This document shows, piece after piece, positions 747 to 6,735 of a stretch of 6,735 nucleotides of DNA. Location of the stretch: the NCBI GenBank assembly GCA_003233475.1, contig QILU01000052.1:1-6735 (forward strand), given 5' to 3'. How positions within the stretch are numbered: the stretch's first letter is position 1; every line of letters begins with the position of its first letter. The position numbers and the translations under genes were made by a program. The stretch comes from Ahrensia sp. (GTDB lineage: Bacteria > Pseudomonadota > Alphaproteobacteria > Rhizobiales > Rhizobiaceae). The notes beneath the pieces are model-generated. The model did no database searches. It saw nothing but the letters and a program-made list of their open reading frames with translations, and was not told the origin of the DNA.

Positions 747-1898
747 TTGTACGCCTACGTTGATGAAACCGGAAACACGGGCGCGAGGCTGTTAGATGAT
801 GAGCAACCTCTGTTTGTTACCGCTGCTTTGATGACCCGATCCGATTTTGATAGCCGATTTGCTGATGATATACGGAAAATTGCAAACTCGCTTGATGCTG
901 AAGAAATCCATGCAAATAAGTTAGGCATTGGTCGGTTAGAACCAATCGCATTAGATATTCTCAGGACCGTCAGAAAGTCCGACCCAAGCTTCTTCCTCGC
1001 GCGCGTTGAAAAGCGATATGTAATAGCATCGAAAGTCTTTGATACCATCTTTGACTCTTATGAGAACAAGGCTGTTCCGTGGCATGTGTTTAACGTGCGT
1101 CCGCTGCGACTGATTATGGTTTTCAAGATTGCATCTCTATTGGATGATGGAATCGCTAATCAGTTTTGGGAAGCGTTGATGGAAGCTAATAGCGAACGCG
1201 CCCGAGAAAAAATGGCTGAATTTTGTCGAACTTTGGCCCATCGAGTTTCTCTTGTTCCAGATGAACGTTCGCGCGAAATAATTAGCCAATCTCTTGATTG
1301 GGCAGCCCAAAACCCTGAATCTTTAGATTTCGTCCATCAAACAAAGGCTGGACGTAAAAGCCATCTTCCCAATATGGTTGGCTTTGGAAACCTTCTGTCG
1401 GGAATTGAGCGACAGTCAAATGTATGGGGCTTCCCGGTCGAAGTGATAAGACATGATAGACAGCAAGAATTCGCTCAAAGTATCGAATTTTGGCACAAAA
1501 TGTACTCAAATGCGCTACCAGATGTTGTTGAACTTCCTTTAGGAGAGAAGGTGGTGCTGCAAAAGGTTTTTGGAAGCAAACTAGAGATAGTTTCAGCAAA
1601 GGATAGCGCTGGAATACAAATAATTGATGTCATCCTATGGCTTTTTGGCAGATCATTAAGAGGAGACAATCTCCCAAAAAATTGTCAGGCTTTGATGGAT
1701 TATGTCTTTAGTAGAGCATATCAAGACGACTTTTCATTCTCGGGCGTTGGCGCGGCGGCAGGGGAATTGATCGAAGATATCGAAAACGTGGAGCTTCCTG
1801 CGGAGGCTTTTGAGAAGGCCAAGGCACTCCAAGATGAACTGGAACAAAAGCGTCAAGATGGAATGTCAGCTTATGCTAAGTCGAAACGAGGCGAGTGA
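747..1898 (+). CDS. DUF3800 domain-containing protein
   Basis: The 383-residue protein opens with YVDETGNTG (residues 4-12), the hallmark N-terminal motif of the DUF3800 family with an Asp-Glu pair at 6-7. Further family-like points are EIHANKL at 53-59, RHDRQQEF at 235-242, and a C-terminal segment KDSAGIQIIDVILW at 285-298 whose Asp294 matches the family's usual late acidic position. The Asp/Glu pattern resembles RNase H-like nucleases, but activity here is inferred only. The C-terminus (about 350-383) is charged and probably helical. DUF3800 genes are common on mobile elements and near defence genes. The start is TTG at 747, chosen because it puts the YVDE motif in its usual place; the frame is open back to a TAA at 705-707 with no ATG. 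A weak GGAA at 736-739 could be the ribosome site. Full length and uninterrupted. Confidence 0.85.
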   Translation: MYAYVDETGNTGARLLDDEQPLFVTAALMTRSDFDSRFADDIRKIANSLDAEEIHANKLGIGRLEPIALDILRTVRKSDPSFFLARVEKRYVIASKVFDTIFDSYENKAVPWHVFNVRPLRLIMVFKIASLLDDGIANQFWEALMEANSERAREKMAEFCRTLAHRVSLVPDERSREIISQSLDWAAQNPESLDFVHQTKAGRKSHLPNMVGFGNLLSGIERQSNVWGFPVEVIRHDRQQEFAQSIEFWHKMYSNALPDVVELPLGEKVVLQKVFGSKLEIVSAKDSAGIQIIDVILWLFGRSLRGDNLPKNCQALMDYVFSRAYQDDFSFSGVGAAAGELIEDIENVELPAEAFEKAKALQDELEQKRQDGMSAYAKSKRGE

Positions 1899-1942: not shown

Positions 1943-2027
1943 TTTACACATTTTGTTACACATATTAAAATTATTAGATTTTTTATCATTATCTATCAAT
2001 GATATAATAAAGAGATCAATCGCCTCT
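1943..2027 (+). repeat. 85-bp att-like direct repeat, copy 1
   Basis: Copy 1 of a repeat whose partner is at 6175-6259 (75/85 identical, no gaps; the first 21 nt match perfectly and the last 44 nt differ at two positions). In order it holds two TTACACA heptamers 12 nt apart (1944-1950, 1956-1962), an AT-rich spacer where most differences fall, the hairpin TATCATT/AATGATA (1984-1990, 1998-2004, 7-nt loop), and the end GATCAATCGCCTCT. In copy 2 the terminal CTCT continues into a tRNA-Lys anticodon loop; here it continues as GCCTCGC, not tRNA. The layout (tandem arm-like sites, dyad, short core) resembles the end of an element moved by a tyrosine recombinase. That role is inferred. Confidence 0.75.
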
Positions 2028-2103
2028 GCCTCGCTATATTTAAATCTCAATCGCAGAATTTTCTTAAGAACAACCTACTTCCAAATTTTACTGGCACTTC
2101 ATT

Positions 2104-2127
2104 TTTCCAATTGAACAATATTGGAAA
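2104..2127 (-). terminator. Possible hairpin terminator of the secreted-protein operon
   Basis: TTTCCAAT (2104-2111) and ATTGGAAA (2120-2127) form an 8-bp stem with an 8-nt loop, about 19 nt beyond the stop of the last operon gene on the minus strand. The stem is AT-rich and no T-tract follows on either strand, so intrinsic termination would be weak. It may instead protect the mRNA end. Confidence 0.3.
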
Positions 2128-2145
2128 CGGATCAATTTTCAGCAA

Positions 2146-2805
2146 TTAATCCCCTTCATGCATTTCAATCCAGGTTTCTTCAGCAAATTTGCCGACGACA
2201 TAACTGACAAGATCTGAGTCATCGCATCCGCGAGAATTGTGTCCCTCATCATAATATTTATAGTACCAGCTTTTGCCCGACGGCGTCTCTTTGTCGTAGG
2301 GAACAAGATGGGTAGTTTCGTGAATCAGTGTATTTATCATGGCCGCTTTTTTTTGATGGCTGACATACCAATTGTCGAAACGATTTGGATCAATTTTCAT
2401 GGTTCTTTTTATAATATTGGTAGTCGCATTTGCATTTCGGGAATATTTCTTTTTTAGCGCGACTGAAACTGTATTTTTCTTGAGGTCAGAAATAATAGTG
2501 TTGCCCGAAACTCGGATATTACTAAAGCATCCAGCGCGCCATGTTTTAGAGTTTAACCTACTCTGGAACTTAGTATTGTTAATGACTTTCATCATCCCGT
2601 CATACGCTTTTTCGAGAACTATCCGGTCAGATTCCTTAAGGGCTTTTGTATAGTAGATCGGCCCCGGGAATTGTCCGACTTGGTTTTTTTGCAAATCTGA
2701 AGATGGTTGAATCTTAACCTCATTTGATAAGCCTACACATCCGCCGAGAAGAAGGGTTGTCGAGCAAGATGCACAAGACAAGATTATTCTTGTTAAACTT
2801 CGCAT
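2146..2805 (-). CDS. Putative zinc metalloprotease lipoprotein (HExxH)
   Basis: The 219-residue protein starts at ATG 2805-2803 with a good GAGG ribosome site 8 nt upstream. Its N-terminus is a lipoprotein signal: a basic start, a hydrophobic run and a lipobox LGGC with the acylated Cys at 23. The predicted mature protein would be membrane-anchored in the periplasm or outer membrane. Residues 160-167 contain HETTH (162-166), a zincin zinc-binding motif, preceded by a helix-like AAMINTL. A later acidic cluster, CDDSDLVSYV (194-203), could supply the third zinc ligand as in aspzincin (M35-like) peptidases, but that family assignment is tentative. Two further Cys (93, 194) may form a disulfide. 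It lies 47 nt downstream of the GH114 gene on the same strand and is probably the last gene of the operon. Export and the zincin motif are solid; substrate is unknown. Confidence 0.75.
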   Translation of the reverse strand: MRSLTRIILSCASCSTTLLLGGCVGLSNEVKIQPSSDLQKNQVGQFPGPIYYTKALKESDRIVLEKAYDGMMKVINNTKFQSRLNSKTWRAGCFSNIRVSGNTIISDLKKNTVSVALKKKYSRNANATTNIIKRTMKIDPNRFDNWYVSHQKKAAMINTLIHETTHLVPYDKETPSGKSWYYKYYDEGHNSRGCDDSDLVSYVVGKFAEETWIEMHEGD

Positions 2806-2852
2806 CTGTGTTTCCTCTATTAAGTCGCATTTACCATATACATATTCCCAAT

Positions 2853-3689
2853 TCAGAGAGGAGCATTAGGATTGCTCGCCTCACATTGCTGATAGATATG
2901 ATCAGCATGGCCTTTTGGTTTTAAATTGACATCTCGGTGTATAACCAAGGCTTTGTTCCCAAAATCTCGGCAGGCTTCCTCGAACCGCCGTTTTTCATAT
3001 TCAACAATGAATGTTCGACCGGGGAAGCGGTTTATATAATCATCGCAAATGTCATATTTACTGCATCGTTCCGCGATTACAAAATCTGCTTCGAGACTGT
3101 TAGCGATATCCAATGCGTTCTTTTGCGCCACATCTAACCCCATACCCTTTGCAATTTTGATGATGTCACGCATCACTGCAATGTTGTGTTCTGGCTGGAT
3201 AAGGTCGGTCCTTAGATAGGTGTCCATATTGTCGATTTCGACAGCATCAAAACCATTTTGGGCACATTTAGCAATCCATCGCGCAATGATCTCTACTAAT
3301 CGCTTCCGTTTAGGTTGAGTGCGAATATCCAACACAAATTCTTTCCACCTATCGTCTTCAACATCGTTTCCATCTGCGTCTTTTAATTTAAGTTCAAATT
3401 CATCATTCCAATGTGGATCATTTCCTTCATTGGGCTGTGTCTGAAATCCGTTGATGTAACACACATTGTAAAGCCCAATGGCCGGTAGCTCCGATTTATC
3501 TCTAACGACGACTGCAACATTTTGTTGCGGTGGATAGGCTTTATCCAGTTGATAGTCGAAATGCCCTATTTTTGTACCGAAGGAGGATAAAGCCTGAATA
3601 GGCTGACCATTATCGGCTTCGTGTAAAGTGCAGGAAGTAATTAACAACAAAGCTATCAAAAGCCTTTGAACAGAAGAAAAAGGACTCAT
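2853..3689 (-). CDS. GH114-type glycoside hydrolase lipoprotein (putative endo-alpha-1,4-polygalactosaminidase)
   Basis: The 278-residue protein begins with a lipoprotein signal (ALLLITSC, acylated Cys at 20). The rest matches the GH114 TIM-barrel family: FDYQLD at 45-50 near the start, the strand-like VAVVVRD (58-64), YNVCYINGFQT (74-84), LDIRTQ (120-125), GFDAVEIDNMDTY (146-158) with acidic residues E151, D153 and D156 at the probable active site, VAQKNALD (187-194), DFVIAERCSKYDIC (202-215) with E207, and GRTFIVEYEK (224-233). GH114 enzymes cleave alpha-1,4-linked galactosamine polymers; substrate here is inferred from the family. The start at ATG 3689-3687 is preferred over a TTG at 3698 because it overlaps the upstream stop as ATGA, a sign of translational coupling. 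Length is normal for the family. A membrane-tethered enzyme acting on extracellular polysaccharide is the likely role. Confidence 0.85.
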   Translation of the reverse strand: MSPFSSVQRLLIALLLITSCTLHEADNGQPIQALSSFGTKIGHFDYQLDKAYPPQQNVAVVVRDKSELPAIGLYNVCYINGFQTQPNEGNDPHWNDEFELKLKDADGNDVEDDRWKEFVLDIRTQPKRKRLVEIIARWIAKCAQNGFDAVEIDNMDTYLRTDLIQPEHNIAVMRDIIKIAKGMGLDVAQKNALDIANSLEADFVIAERCSKYDICDDYINRFPGRTFIVEYEKRRFEEACRDFGNKALVIHRDVNLKPKGHADHIYQQCEASNPNAPL

Positions 3690-5443
3690 TGACCGCAAAC
3701 TAGTTTAGGTTTCCAAGGTCTGTTCCGTTCCAAGCAACGCCGAACAAATTTGTCGCGGAAGATAACCAATTGCGATTCAGAGGGGTTAGAGATCAATTGT
3801 ATCTCTGCAATTTTTGGTCTTTCATTCTCATTTCTTATCGGACCAAAGTTCAATATCACAACGGCCTCAACCTCCGAAGCAACCAATTTTCTTTGCAGGT
3901 CTTCACCAACATATGTATGCACCATAAAGTTTCCAAGTGCATACGTCTGGCCGTTTTTAACATTGACATTGTCTTGAGGGAAAACATACCAACCAATATT
4001 TGTAGCCAAATTTCCATCTTTCTGAGTAAAGTTTCTCCAACTATCAACGCTCGGCATAATCTGATCTGAAAGGATCTCGGCTGGGTCGATGCTCATATCT
4101 ACAAAAAGTGGAATTCCATCGGAATTAACGTACCGGTGATTAGCCGCAAACAGTTGTTGCCCGATCCTACCTCGTGCTCTAGCATCTTCTAACTCAAAAA
4201 TTTTGGCGAAAACACCCCGATTTCTCGTTATTGCCGCACCCATTTGCGCGCTTGATGGAAGAAACGAAAACTTTTTGTCGGCCCAGCCTAAATGTTTTTC
4301 GATGAGAGGGATTTCATCTTTGCTGAAACAGACATCGAACCGTGGGATACTGTCTTCTACGGCGTCAGTTACTCGCTTCAAAACTGTGGCTCGAAGCATA
4401 AGACTATCGAAAGTTGAGAGAGCATATTGGTTGGTTGTAGCAGACGAGATAGCACGGCAAAATTTGCCGATGCCATCTTCGTTAGGAACCTCGCTAAAAG
4501 GTATTGCTCCTAACGCTGTAATCGGGATGATTGTGCTGACTGCAGGGTCGTTGGAAGCATCCTCGGCTGATATTGCTTTGGCAAGTTTGTCGACATCATC
4601 GCTGGCAAGCAGGCCTGTGGGTAGTGTTTTGCTTATCTCGTTGTAGGTGGCGGTGTTTGAAAAATAACTTCTTCGGCCCTCGAGCGTAACTTCTATCTCT
4701 GCGAAAACTGATGCCGAGTCTTTTGGATCTGATATTTCATATACGGCACTGTATCTCTTTTTGGTATTATTCCCCAATTCGTTCTGATATACGCTTAAGG
4801 AGCGTTGATTATTCTGACTTATTATCGCATTGCTGACATTGTTAGCTAGATCAAAAAATTTCTTTGTAGATTTAGATGCAATTTCAACACCGGATTTACC
4901 AATTATATCCGGTATTGAATTCAGATCCACCGACCTTTCATTACTAAAAAAGTATCTTGGCCTGAAGAAAATGGAATCCCCATCTGAAAGGTAAAAATAC
5001 TTTGTTTTTACGGTACCACCGACAAAAGAGGTCCAACTCTTATCTTTTCTCAAAAAAGTCATTAGAGGAATGTTTTCTTGCGCGAACTGGTCTCTTCCTT
5101 GCGACTCCACTGATACCGTAAAAGACAATGTCTTTCGGTCTTTTTGTCCGGTTATCGTCTGCAAAAAACTCTTGAAAAAATCTTTGTGTTTGAAGTTTGC
5201 AGCATTCTCAAAACCGGGTTTTGGCCGAACTTCAAACACTAACCTATAGTAGGCGTCCGAACTACCTTCAGGATAATCGGGTGCAAAACATTCTTTAGAC
5301 AATTTGAACCCTGAGCCAATCCCTAAGTCTTGCCCGCTATCGGGCTTTTTACAATGACTTTCGTCTACTTCGGCAAAAGCAGCATTAGCCGAAATCAAGA
5401 AAATTAAAGAAAAAGTGCCGGCAATGGTTCGCCAAATATACAT
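3686..5443 (-). CDS. Sec-exported 585-aa protein of unknown family
   Basis: The protein has a clear type I signal peptide: basic start, hydrophobic core TFSLIFLI, and an AFA cleavage site after residue 24, so it should be periplasmic or secreted. I recognise no domain in the mature part. It is polar, with many beta-prone stretches in the first 280 residues (LVFEVRPKP, LSFTVSVES, KYFYLSDGDS, FAEIEVTLEG) and a more helical middle; six cysteines are spread through it, including a pair near the C-terminus (RRCLERN...LVCGQ). There is no second membrane segment or surface-anchor motif. The start is ATG 5443-5441 with GGGGG at 5453-5449 as ribosome site. It is the first gene of a three-gene minus-strand operon and overlaps the GH114 gene by 4 nt (ATGA), so the two are probably made together. 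A carbohydrate-binding or partner role is possible but not shown. Confidence 0.8.
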   Translation of the reverse strand: MYIWRTIAGTFSLIFLISANAAFAEVDESHCKKPDSGQDLGIGSGFKLSKECFAPDYPEGSSDAYYRLVFEVRPKPGFENAANFKHKDFFKSFLQTITGQKDRKTLSFTVSVESQGRDQFAQENIPLMTFLRKDKSWTSFVGGTVKTKYFYLSDGDSIFFRPRYFFSNERSVDLNSIPDIIGKSGVEIASKSTKKFFDLANNVSNAIISQNNQRSLSVYQNELGNNTKKRYSAVYEISDPKDSASVFAEIEVTLEGRRSYFSNTATYNEISKTLPTGLLASDDVDKLAKAISAEDASNDPAVSTIIPITALGAIPFSEVPNEDGIGKFCRAISSATTNQYALSTFDSLMLRATVLKRVTDAVEDSIPRFDVCFSKDEIPLIEKHLGWADKKFSFLPSSAQMGAAITRNRGVFAKIFELEDARARGRIGQQLFAANHRYVNSDGIPLFVDMSIDPAEILSDQIMPSVDSWRNFTQKDGNLATNIGWYVFPQDNVNVKNGQTYALGNFMVHTYVGEDLQRKLVASEVEAVVILNFGPIRNENERPKIAEIQLISNPSESQLVIFRDKFVRRCLERNRPWKPKLVCGQ

Positions 5444-5499
5444 AGTCGCCCCCGAAAGAAATTGATGCCAATTGTATTTGCGACTCGCCTTTTCTTTTG

Positions 5500-5527
5500 A
5501 ACATAGGGCAATTACGATACTTTACAA
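5500..5527 (-). promoter_or_regulatory. Candidate promoter for the three-gene operon
   Basis: Read on the minus strand, TTGTAA (5527-5522) and TATGTT (5505-5500) are separated by 16 nt, a sigma-70-like arrangement about 57 nt upstream of the first operon ATG. The match is partial and AT-rich DNA gives such pairs often, so this is only a candidate. No operator-like dyad is visible beside it. Confidence 0.3.
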
Positions 5528-5638
5528 ATTCAAATGTTGCGATGGTACCTTCCTCGCTTGAACCATGGAGCACATGCCCAATCATATATTCAGGTCGATC
5601 GAATGGAGCGCGTGACAACGATCACAGTTAAGCGAGAT

Positions 5639-6107
5639 CTAGGACGTGTTGACAAAGAGGGCTTCGCGCCAAGGTCTTGGCCGCTCAAAAGGCGGTTTCA
5701 CGACCAAGGTCCATCTCCGCATCAACGCAATGGGCTTGCCCATAGCGTTCGCCATTACTGGCGGCGAAGTCTCCGATTACAAAGGCTATCTGCCGATCAT
5801 GAATGCCGATGGGCCAGTACCCAAAGTGCTGCTCGCTGACAAAGGCTATGACGCTGACTTCATCCGCGAAGACATGGAAAAGCGCGGCGGCATGGCGATG
5901 ATCCCAACCAAACGGAACCGCAAAATACAGATACCCGTCGATCCCGCCATCTATGCCCTACGCAACATGGTCGAACGCTGCTTTAACAAGCTCAAAAATG
6001 CTCGGAGATTAGCAACCCGATACGATAAAACTGCTGATAGTTACCTCGGCTTCGTCCACATCATATCCATCCGATTATGGATGCGCCAATTTGTTAACAC
6101 CTCCTAG
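5639..6107 (+). mobile_element. Internally deleted IS5-family (IS427-like) insertion sequence
   Basis: The unit is bounded by inverted repeats: CTAGGACGTGTTGACAAA at 5639-5656 and, on the opposite strand, CTAGGAGGTGTTAACAAA at 6107-6090, matching at 16 of 18 positions. The outermost CTAG on each side may be the target duplication (IS5-family members often duplicate a short TA-centred site), leaving a 461-bp element with 14-bp ends. That is roughly half the length of a complete IS of this group. The left terminal repeat joins almost directly to the middle of the transposase gene, so the N-terminal half is gone while both ends are kept. Such a derivative could be moved only by a transposase supplied elsewhere. 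Its base composition is more GC-rich than the operon beside it. Confidence 0.75.
5646..6107 (+). pseudogene. IS5-family transposase, C-terminal half only
   Basis: The remaining frame (153 residues from a GTG inside the left terminal repeat) carries GRSKGGFTTKVHL (12-24), PIAFAITGGEVSD (32-44), LLADKGYDADFIRE (62-75) and NMVERCFNKLKNARRLATRYDK (107-128), the second Asp and the final Glu regions (D65 or D69; E110) of the IS5/IS427 DDE transposases. The first catalytic Asp region and the whole N-terminal DNA-binding part are missing, and a TAG lies just upstream at 5640-5642, so the product cannot be an active transposase. The stop TAG at 6105-6107 falls at the right end of the element. A longer plus-strand frame overlapping at 5534-5839 is only its shadow. 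Confidence 0.85.
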
Positions 6108-6174
6108 TTTATCCCAACTGTCCTGAAATTTGTGGCCGAAGGGCGTGAGTAAAGCCATCAAGAACACAGCAAAA

Positions 6175-6259
6175 TTTACACATTTTGTTACACATTTAGA
6201 CAATATATGATTTATTATCATTATTTATCAATGATATAATAAAGGGATCAATCGCCTCT
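6175..6259 (+). repeat. 85-bp att-like direct repeat, copy 2 (tRNA-proximal)
   Basis: This is the partner of 1943-2027, same strand, exactly 4,232 bp away. TTACACA occurs at 6176-6182 and 6188-6194; TATCATT and AATGATA form the dyad at 6216-6222 and 6230-6236; the end GATCAATCGCCTCT runs without a break into the tRNA fragment, the last CTCT being shared with the tRNA anticodon loop. It looks like the recombined right end of an integrated element. Two differences fall in the last 44 nt and eight in the AT-rich spacer, so the copies are related ends and not a fresh duplication. Confidence 0.75.
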
Positions 6260-6300
6260 TAATCAGTAGGTCGCTGGTTCGAACCCAGCAGGGCTCACCA
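6256..6300 (+). tRNA. tRNA-Lys(CTT) 3' fragment
   Basis: The sequence fits a tRNA from the anticodon loop onward: loop CTCTTAA (6256-6262, anticodon CTT at 6258-6260), TCAGT 3' side of the anticodon stem, variable loop AGGTC, T stem GCTGG/CCAGC closing TTCGAAC, acceptor strand AGGGCTC, discriminator A and encoded CCA at 6298-6300. The bases to the left do not pair with the anticodon or D stems and belong to the 85-bp repeat, so the 5' half is absent. This is what an integration event leaves at the distal side of a tRNA target. It is not a functional gene. Confidence 0.85.
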
Positions 6301-6301
6301 T

Positions 6302-6318
6302 TATAACAATGGGTTATA
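6302..6318 (+). repeat. Small inverted repeat just after the tRNA CCA
   Basis: TATAAC (6302-6307) and GTTATA (6313-6318) form a 6-bp stem with a 5-nt loop directly behind the tRNA fragment, followed at 6320-6329 by the perfect palindrome CGGTATACCG. These may be a relic of the tRNA 3' flank or recombinase core-type sites; the sequence does not decide. Confidence 0.3.
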
Positions 6319-6325
6319 GCGGTAT

Positions 6326-6365
6326 ACCGTTCTAATTTCATTTTTAGAACGGTGTTTAGAACGGT
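6326..6365 (+). repeat. TTTAGAACGGT arm-like repeat cluster
   Basis: TTTAGAACGGT occurs twice in direct orientation, 12 nt apart (6343-6353 and 6355-6365). An inverted copy, ACCGTTCTAA at 6326-6335, pairs perfectly over 10 bp with 6344-6353 across an 8-nt loop (TTTCATTT). No T-tract follows, so a terminator is unlikely. The 12-nt period equals that of the TTACACA pair on the other side of the tRNA, and such tandem short sites next to a tRNA 3' end are typical of integrase arm sites. This suggests that a second, different element borders the tRNA on the right. Confidence 0.5.
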
Positions 6366-6380
6366 AAGTCTCATCCAACC

Positions 6381-6593
6381 TTATCGTTTATAACCGAGTT
6401 CTACTTTGTCCAGTCCCTCTTCAACCAGCTTGAACAATATTTCAGGATTGTCGGCATAGCCCTCCCCTTCATCGGCGAACAGATCAGCGGTGATTGTGCC
6501 GCCAGCCTGTTTATATTCGTCCACCGATATGAAGGTGAACAGCTTGCTGCGCATATCAACCTTCTCATCGGTGAGGATGGAACGGCGGCTTGA
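6381..6593 (-). pseudogene. ParB-like partition protein, internal fragment
   Basis: The minus-strand frame reads SSRRSILTDEKVDMRSKLF, then FISVDEYKQAGGTITADLF, ADEGEGYADNPEILFKLVEE and GLDKVELGYKR before TAA. The pattern of an EYxxAGGTIT-DLF motif, an acidic stretch with a D/NPEIL, then LVEE resembles the middle of the long ParB/RepB/Spo0J-type proteins found on plasmids and integrated elements of alphaproteobacteria. The ParB nuclease-like N-terminal domain, the helix-turn-helix and the C-terminus are all absent. The only ATG, at 6554-6552, gives 57 residues. The upstream junction lies near 6595. This is a relic of a plasmid or conjugative element; the family call rests on motif memory, without alignment. 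Confidence 0.5.
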
Positions 6594-6699
6594 TGTGGTT
6601 GAATTTGTTAACTGGCTGGAGGCACTAGGTGAAAGCGAACAAGCTGCCGTTATTTGCTGGCAGATACTGACTCATGACAAAAGTGATAAGGTTGCATGA
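6577..6699 (+). pseudogene. C-terminal coding fragment of unknown gene
   Basis: From about 6590 the plus strand turns protein-like: LDVVEFVNWLEALG then ESEQAAVICWQILTHDKSDK and a VA end, followed by TGA inside the right 18-bp inverted repeat. The ATG at 6577 gives 40 residues, but its first few codons lie in the antisense of the ParB remnant, so the real 5' part is missing. A transposase C-terminus belonging to the 335-bp unit would fit, because transposase genes often stop within the terminal repeat, but I do not recognise the family. Confidence 0.3.
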
Positions 6700-6735
6700 G
6701 ACCCAATTCAACAACGCAATCCAAACTTTGTCCAA

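Follow-up and report, generated by a model that had tools for sequence, protein, structure and literature searches.

Positions 1 to 6,735 of contig QILU01000052.1 (6,735 base pairs [bp]; hereafter, "the window") are probably a piece of a tandem array of islands at a tRNA-Lys(UUU) gene, in which two direct repeats are the right ends of islands of the same family and the 4.2 kb between them (positions 2028 to 6259; here, unit E) is an integrase-less remnant. The repeats lie at positions 1938 to 2027 (copy 1) and 6170 to 6259 (copy 2) of the forward strand, are ungapped and 88% identical over 90 nucleotides (nt), and are offset by 4,232 bp. In a sliding 90-nt comparison they agreed at 79 of 90 positions, compared to a maximum of 49 of 90 in 20 dinucleotide shuffles, and both copies terminate in GATCAATCGCCTCT; a preliminary description of this DNA had reported two att-like direct repeats with a common end, and both observations were confirmed. 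Each repeat carries a pair of TTACACA motifs with a 12-bp spacing, starting at 1944 and 1956 in copy 1 and at 6176 and 6188 in copy 2. These four occurrences are the only ones in the window (0.58 expected). On sequence evidence, both repeats are right-end attachment sites, each made up of an arm with two TTACACA motifs followed by the core GATCAATCGCCTCT, that belong to a tRNA-Lys tyrosine integrase family in Sphingomonadales. Copy 1 would be the right end of a left-hand island (element D), and copy 2 would be the right end of unit E.

Copy 2 runs straight into the 3' half of a tRNA-Lys(UUU)-type gene (positions 6256 to 6300, forward strand), which extends from tRNA position 32 to a CCA end at 6300, shares its first four bases (6256 to 6259) with the core, and is not preceded by a 5' half. 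ARAGORN found no tRNA gene in the window. Copy 1 has no such continuation: the identity of the two copies is exact up to T35, and after CTCT copy 1 is joined at 2027/2028 to unrelated, non-tRNA sequence (the bases 3' of its core agree with the tRNA at 5 of 14 positions, counted by eye). The preliminary description had recognized this difference between the copies, and that reading was upheld, but its assignment of the half to tRNA-Lys(CTT) was not. Of 32 congener genomes, 30 contain tRNA-Lys(TTT)-type sequence that agrees with the half at no more than 2 mismatches. Position 34 is C in the window but was T in all 45 congener matches, although the search pattern, which tolerated 2 mismatches, did not specify this base; the tRNA-Lys(CTT)-like matches of three genomes (G328, G353, and G554) bear different 3' halves. 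An earlier tRNA-Lys pattern that contained CTC had no match in 8 genomes. Because T34 was found in 45 of 45 matches, the C34 of the window most likely derives from the element or represents a change inherited within it, with the crossover located 3' of C34. A group I intron inside the tRNA of the window was considered and rejected, there being neither a 5' tRNA half nor an intron match. Among the copies listed for the 32 congener genomes, 17 were tRNA-Lys(UUU) half copies, distributed over 15 genomes (a simple test for the 5' half served to identify them; another half, in G328, was observed separately), and by this count the tRNA-Lys(UUU) gene is a common target, or hotspot, in the genus.

Among 396 genomes of the order, two (locus L031 in G353 and locus L032 in G328) have the same arm and core fused to the same tRNA-Lys 3' half, with 82 to 83% identity over 130 to 132 nt. 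Matches to the repeat at an E value of ≤0.01 occurred in 15 of the 396 genomes; two of these extended to the tRNA half and the remainder were short. One of the short matches (L038 in G035) showed a similar arm motif pair, TTACACATTTTCTTACACAT, ahead of a different tRNA 3' half, whose anticodon, read by eye, appears to be TCA. The link between the repeats and tRNA-Lys attachment proposed in the preliminary description is thus borne out by both relatives with a full-repeat match, while among the shorter matches the arm pair at L038 departs from it.

In G328, an intact tRNA-Lys(TTT) gene is followed by TTACACA motifs and then by a gene for a 376-amino-acid (aa) tyrosine integrase. The right end with its tRNA half lies ~25 kb past the integrase and is followed by a second element, which has a different integrase and ends in a further tRNA half, so that one array in this genome consists of an intact tRNA-Lys gene and two further tRNA halves. 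A search with the integrase returned 28 rows from 25 of 397 family genomes at an E value of ≤1e-60. The rows with at least 78% identity came from G328 (itself), G353 (91%), and G554 (78%), and in all three the integrase gene sits directly behind an intact tRNA-Lys gene (TTT in G328 and G353 and CTT in G554), with one or two TTACACA motifs between the tRNA and the integrase gene. The two element ends in G353 are on separate contigs. These three nearest relatives retain the whole tRNA 3' half, and a core of CTCT alone is not their norm. Since the integrase of the relatives lies directly behind the intact tRNA-Lys at the far end of the island, that of the window is expected to the left of position 1. 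A close parallel to unit E, and the best we found, is a 3.7-kb unit in G554 (L101:7426-11279), which is flanked at tRNA-Lys(CTT) by a pair of right ends that share 86% identity over 127 nt. Two of its open reading frames (ORFs) were scanned, one of which encodes a 570-aa protein; neither had a Pfam family, and no integrase was recognized.

The left edge of unit E (2028 to 2145) contains neither a TTACACA motif nor a tRNA half, and its similarity to 24 other left-end stretches was no better than that of shuffles. To its right lie three cargo genes, all on the minus strand. The first encodes a 219-aa protein (2146 to 2805) for which a protein database search gave three relatives besides itself; by eye, it has an HExxH motif and a lipobox-like LLGGC at its start. 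The second encodes a protein of GH114, an endo-alpha-1,4-polygalactosaminidase family (2853 to 3698), with a lipoprotein-like start (by eye), and the third encodes a 585-aa protein (3686 to 5443) with a signal-peptide-like start (by eye) that is an orphan, the protein database search having returned itself alone. Between this operon and copy 2 is a 5'-truncated remnant of an IS5-family transposase (5646 to 6107, forward strand), which covers positions 112 to 258 of a 258-position model and lacks its first ~110 residues. No integrase was recognized in the 8 of 30 listed ORFs of the window that were scanned with Pfam, a set that included all five of the larger ones, and no integration or transfer genes were found among them.

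Because the sequence to the right of copy 1 has no tRNA half, arm sites, or integrase, unit E is best read as a remnant resembling a cis-mobilizable element (CIME). The array would reside in a Sphingomonadales bacterium, with the integrase of the island family to the left of the window, directly behind an intact tRNA-Lys gene. The 4.2 kb between the repeats would be integrase-less cargo whose right end is intact and fused to the displaced tRNA 3' half and whose left end (tRNA half, left arm, and any integrase) would have been lost, replaced, or recombined. Such a unit would move, if at all, together with its neighbors upon recombination between outer ends. We infer all three of these features: the position of the integrase, the loss of the left end, and the comobilization. 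Several claims of the preliminary description agree with this picture: stacking of related islands is seen in the tandem arrays of the relatives, a recombinase encoded elsewhere fits its location beside the intact tRNA in three relatives, and the lack of an integrase in the unit is matched by the eight scanned ORFs. The proposal that 2028 to 6259 is a discrete mobile element, however, found no support at its left end.

Five points weigh against a remnant within a tandem array. A random deletion must by coincidence have ended no more than one or two bases from the crossover, where the product of a recombinase would end by rule. The parallel unit in G554 retains a tRNA half after its first right end, where unit E has none. 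Since the contig does not reach the left part of the array, both the integrase and an intact tRNA are predictions. Exact patterns of the repeats had zero matches in genome_contigs and viral_contigs, and the operon DNA was absent from the 397 family genomes in a search run without a positive control. In accounting for the odd junction at copy 1, we nevertheless weighed decay of a left end first and a junction made at a short core second.

According to this second reading, which we consider unlikely, unit E was joined to the right end of element D by a recombinase acting at anticodon positions 34 to 36, with the right side of attP not matching the tRNA. Copy 1 would then be a true element-element junction, and unit E a real small element served by a recombinase in trans. 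The two copies are identical exactly to T35, where the difference between C34 and the T34 of the host places the crossover, and short-core integration at tRNA-Lys-TTT is given as proven for mycobacteriophages in the portion of PMC10865867 drawn on here. However, the three nearest integrases lie behind intact tRNA-Lys genes, unit E has no TTACACA site on its left, and the window has no tRNA gene. In an integrase tree of 24 rows (L077, L078, L079, and L082 of the 28 were left out), for which the tool warned of long branches, the four rows whose target tRNA is intact (three Lys and one Met) split from the other 20; the target at L070 was labeled by default, and the tRNA-Met element was judged without its right end. 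In addition, tRNA-Lys broken after position 35 matched no element in the 397 genomes. The exact pattern, which required that the next base not be T (a break followed by T would escape it), had two hits, both of them tRNA-Lys genes with an intron-like insert and neither an element.

These two hits (L161:1493-1788 in G128 and L162:1493-1788 in G476) are tRNA-Lys(UUU)-type genes in which position 35 is followed by an insert resembling a group I intron, with Rfam E values of ~1e-6 that fall under the gathering score. The point of insertion coincides with the crossover spot of the window. Close to the gene at L161, the opposite strand bears a tRNA-Lys 3' half. In part of PMC4390854, Randau and Soll are credited with the idea that disruption of tRNA genes protects against integration.

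An observation in favor of a short core comes from a sister clade within this integrase family, which targets tRNA-Leu and breaks it in the anticodon loop without restoring it. At 19 of 24 loci, a 5' half lies ahead of the integrase with no T-arm after it (at L060 the half continues into the variable arm). Among the five remaining loci, L077 and L082 have an intact tRNA-Leu, and L070, L078, and L079 have no tRNA-Leu half at that place. CAA genes are targeted in 13 of the 19 (L062, L063, L066, L068, L069, L071 to L076, L080, and L081), and a complete tRNA-Leu(CAA) lies behind the integrase in 13 of 13. Position 32 of this carried tRNA differs from that of the broken gene in all 13 (T versus C in 12 and the reverse in L066). 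TAA genes are targeted in the remaining six (L058, L059, L060, L064, L065, and L067). Five of these carry a tRNA-Leu(TAA) with a 216- to 240-nt intron in the anticodon loop as called by ARAGORN; at the sixth, L060, the ARAGORN call is a tRNA-Phe with an intron, which is probably of the same kind. An Rfam group I intron scored above the gathering score at two of seven intron-candidate loci (L058 and L065). Two whole elements were delimited, one of ~26 kb with a 9-bp core in G418 (L152 to L154) and one of ~27 kb with a 10-bp core in G450 (L158 to L160), the cores being read by eye; the other four element regions that we retrieved did not show a tRNA half of the broken gene.

We then asked how many of 22 genomes, some of which may be incomplete, have another intact copy, using a pattern for intact intronless tRNA-Leu(CAA) or tRNA-Leu(TAA). 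The carried tRNA-Leu(CAA) was the sole intact copy found in 11 of the 13 CAA-affected genomes, G442 and G293 having a second copy. As a control, the CAA pattern found the gene in three of three comparison genomes (G328, G554, and G558) and in four of five genomes with a TAA element only (not in G410). Intact intronless tRNA-Leu(TAA) was found in none of the six TAA-affected genomes, a result of little weight, since this pattern was also blank in 7 of 12 CAA-affected genomes without a known TAA element. An altered position 32 or a loop intron would spoil the integrase's own target in the replacement tRNA and may thereby shield it; in the case of tRNA-Leu(TAA), the intron may play this part against the element's own integrase. 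Among open-licence PMC papers, judged by title and the start of the abstract, we found no report of group I introns combined with tRNA-replacing elements. Separately, the tRNA-Leu(CAA) that is carried after the integrase at L070 (G417) has itself been split by other DNA within the anticodon loop. From this locus, elements may hit one another's replacement tRNAs.

The preliminary description had suggested that identity between element and tRNA at the crossover may be as short as CTCT. The three nearest integrases do not use such a core and the exact break pattern met no element in the 397 genomes, but a short core is conceivable because the sister clade uses one in tRNA-Leu, of 9 to 10 bp in the two whole elements. 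If the family recombinase needed a match up to the anticodon alone, it could stack integrase-less cargo on the tRNA fragment of an earlier island, and elements D and E would be the tRNA-Lys counterpart of the tRNA-replacing elements; we regard this extension as marginally more doubtful still. Stacking without restoration would be feasible under it because nothing needs restoring at a leftover tRNA fragment.

It is improbable, to a greater degree, that 2028 to 6259 forms the right portion of some larger tRNA-Lys island into which element D was inserted at a secondary site, in which case no 4.2-kb unit would exist. Integration at a non-tRNA site would also end the identity of the copies exactly at the crossover, no listed gene of the operon is interrupted at 2028, and in the relative at L070 the left core follows sequence that does not resemble a tRNA 5' half. 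Against such nesting, both right ends are of the same family, the genus commonly has tRNA-Lys halves and arrays, and the 5 matches in 14 bases counted by eye are all that the sequence past the core of copy 1 has in common with the tRNA. An assembly chimera at 2027/2028 in this metagenome-type contig is very improbable: the 585-aa, DUF3800, and 219-aa proteins are each on one 6,735-bp contig and the joint has no confirmation from a second contig, but the sequence at 2028 is unrelated to the repeat, and hence the repeat itself would not be the cause of the join.

Outside unit E, the last gene of element D ahead of copy 1 encodes a DUF3800 protein (747 to 1898, forward strand) whose closest named relatives are in Sphingomonadales. 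Directly past the tRNA half are three AGAACGGT motifs (6326 to 6365), which are probably arm sites at the left end of an unrelated third element; a similar motif layout follows a tRNA-Lys half in G636 (L136:380-701). A ParB-like protein fragment follows (6381 to 6554, minus strand), with a Sphingobium ParB as its best plasmid match (62.5%). The motifs after the tRNA half and the ParB-like fragment together suggest that a third element, from a different integrase family, has its left end in positions 6301 to 6735. A search of plasmid DNA with the window matched 42 records, and the 20 matches listed were all to the insertion sequence remnant; a search of phage DNA matched three records, at the tRNA half. 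A weak VR-RNA match and a KwaB match in the window were dismissed as chance.

Among known systems, unit E is closest to CIMEs formed by tandem accretion and to integrase-less islands at ssrA, as outlined in parts of PMC5704250 and PMC3146451: it has no integrase, lies beside related islands at one tRNA-type target, and has kept its right site. In keeping with CIMEs, the scanned ORFs include no integration or transfer genes. Unlike CIMEs, for which retention of both attL and attR is a defining trait, unit E has an unrecognizable left site with neither a tRNA fragment nor arm sites. Tandem islands at tRNA genes are one route by which cargo without its own recombinase can spread. The displaced tRNA 3' fragment at the right end is shared with classic Islander-type tRNA islands, which reconstruct the 3' half of their target and are the kind to which G328, G353, and G554 belong, whereas copy 1 has no tRNA fragment and the eight scanned ORFs of the window include no recognized integrase, in both of which it differs from the islands as outlined in PMC4383910.

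The third comparison is with tRNA-dependent lysogeny, the combination of short-core integration with a replacement tRNA that is named in the part of PMC10865867 cited. A prophage case with tRNA-Leu(UAG) in the alphaproteobacterium Sinorhizobium appears in part of PMC11476347, and other prophages are reported in part of PMC12429752 without the replacement-tRNA arrangement. The window resembles that system in having a crossover at the tRNA-Lys anticodon, and a very short core would explain copy 1; it differs in that it contains no replacement tRNA, although the rest of element D lies beyond the contig, and in that the nearest integrases keep a long core. Here the crossover could be placed within ~2 bases from the DNA letters alone, at a junction without the tRNA part kept by the nearest relatives. 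Since one integrase family has both target-sparing members and members that destroy and replace their target, the relation of the two modes, called unclear in the portion of PMC10865867 that treats it, becomes testable within a single family.

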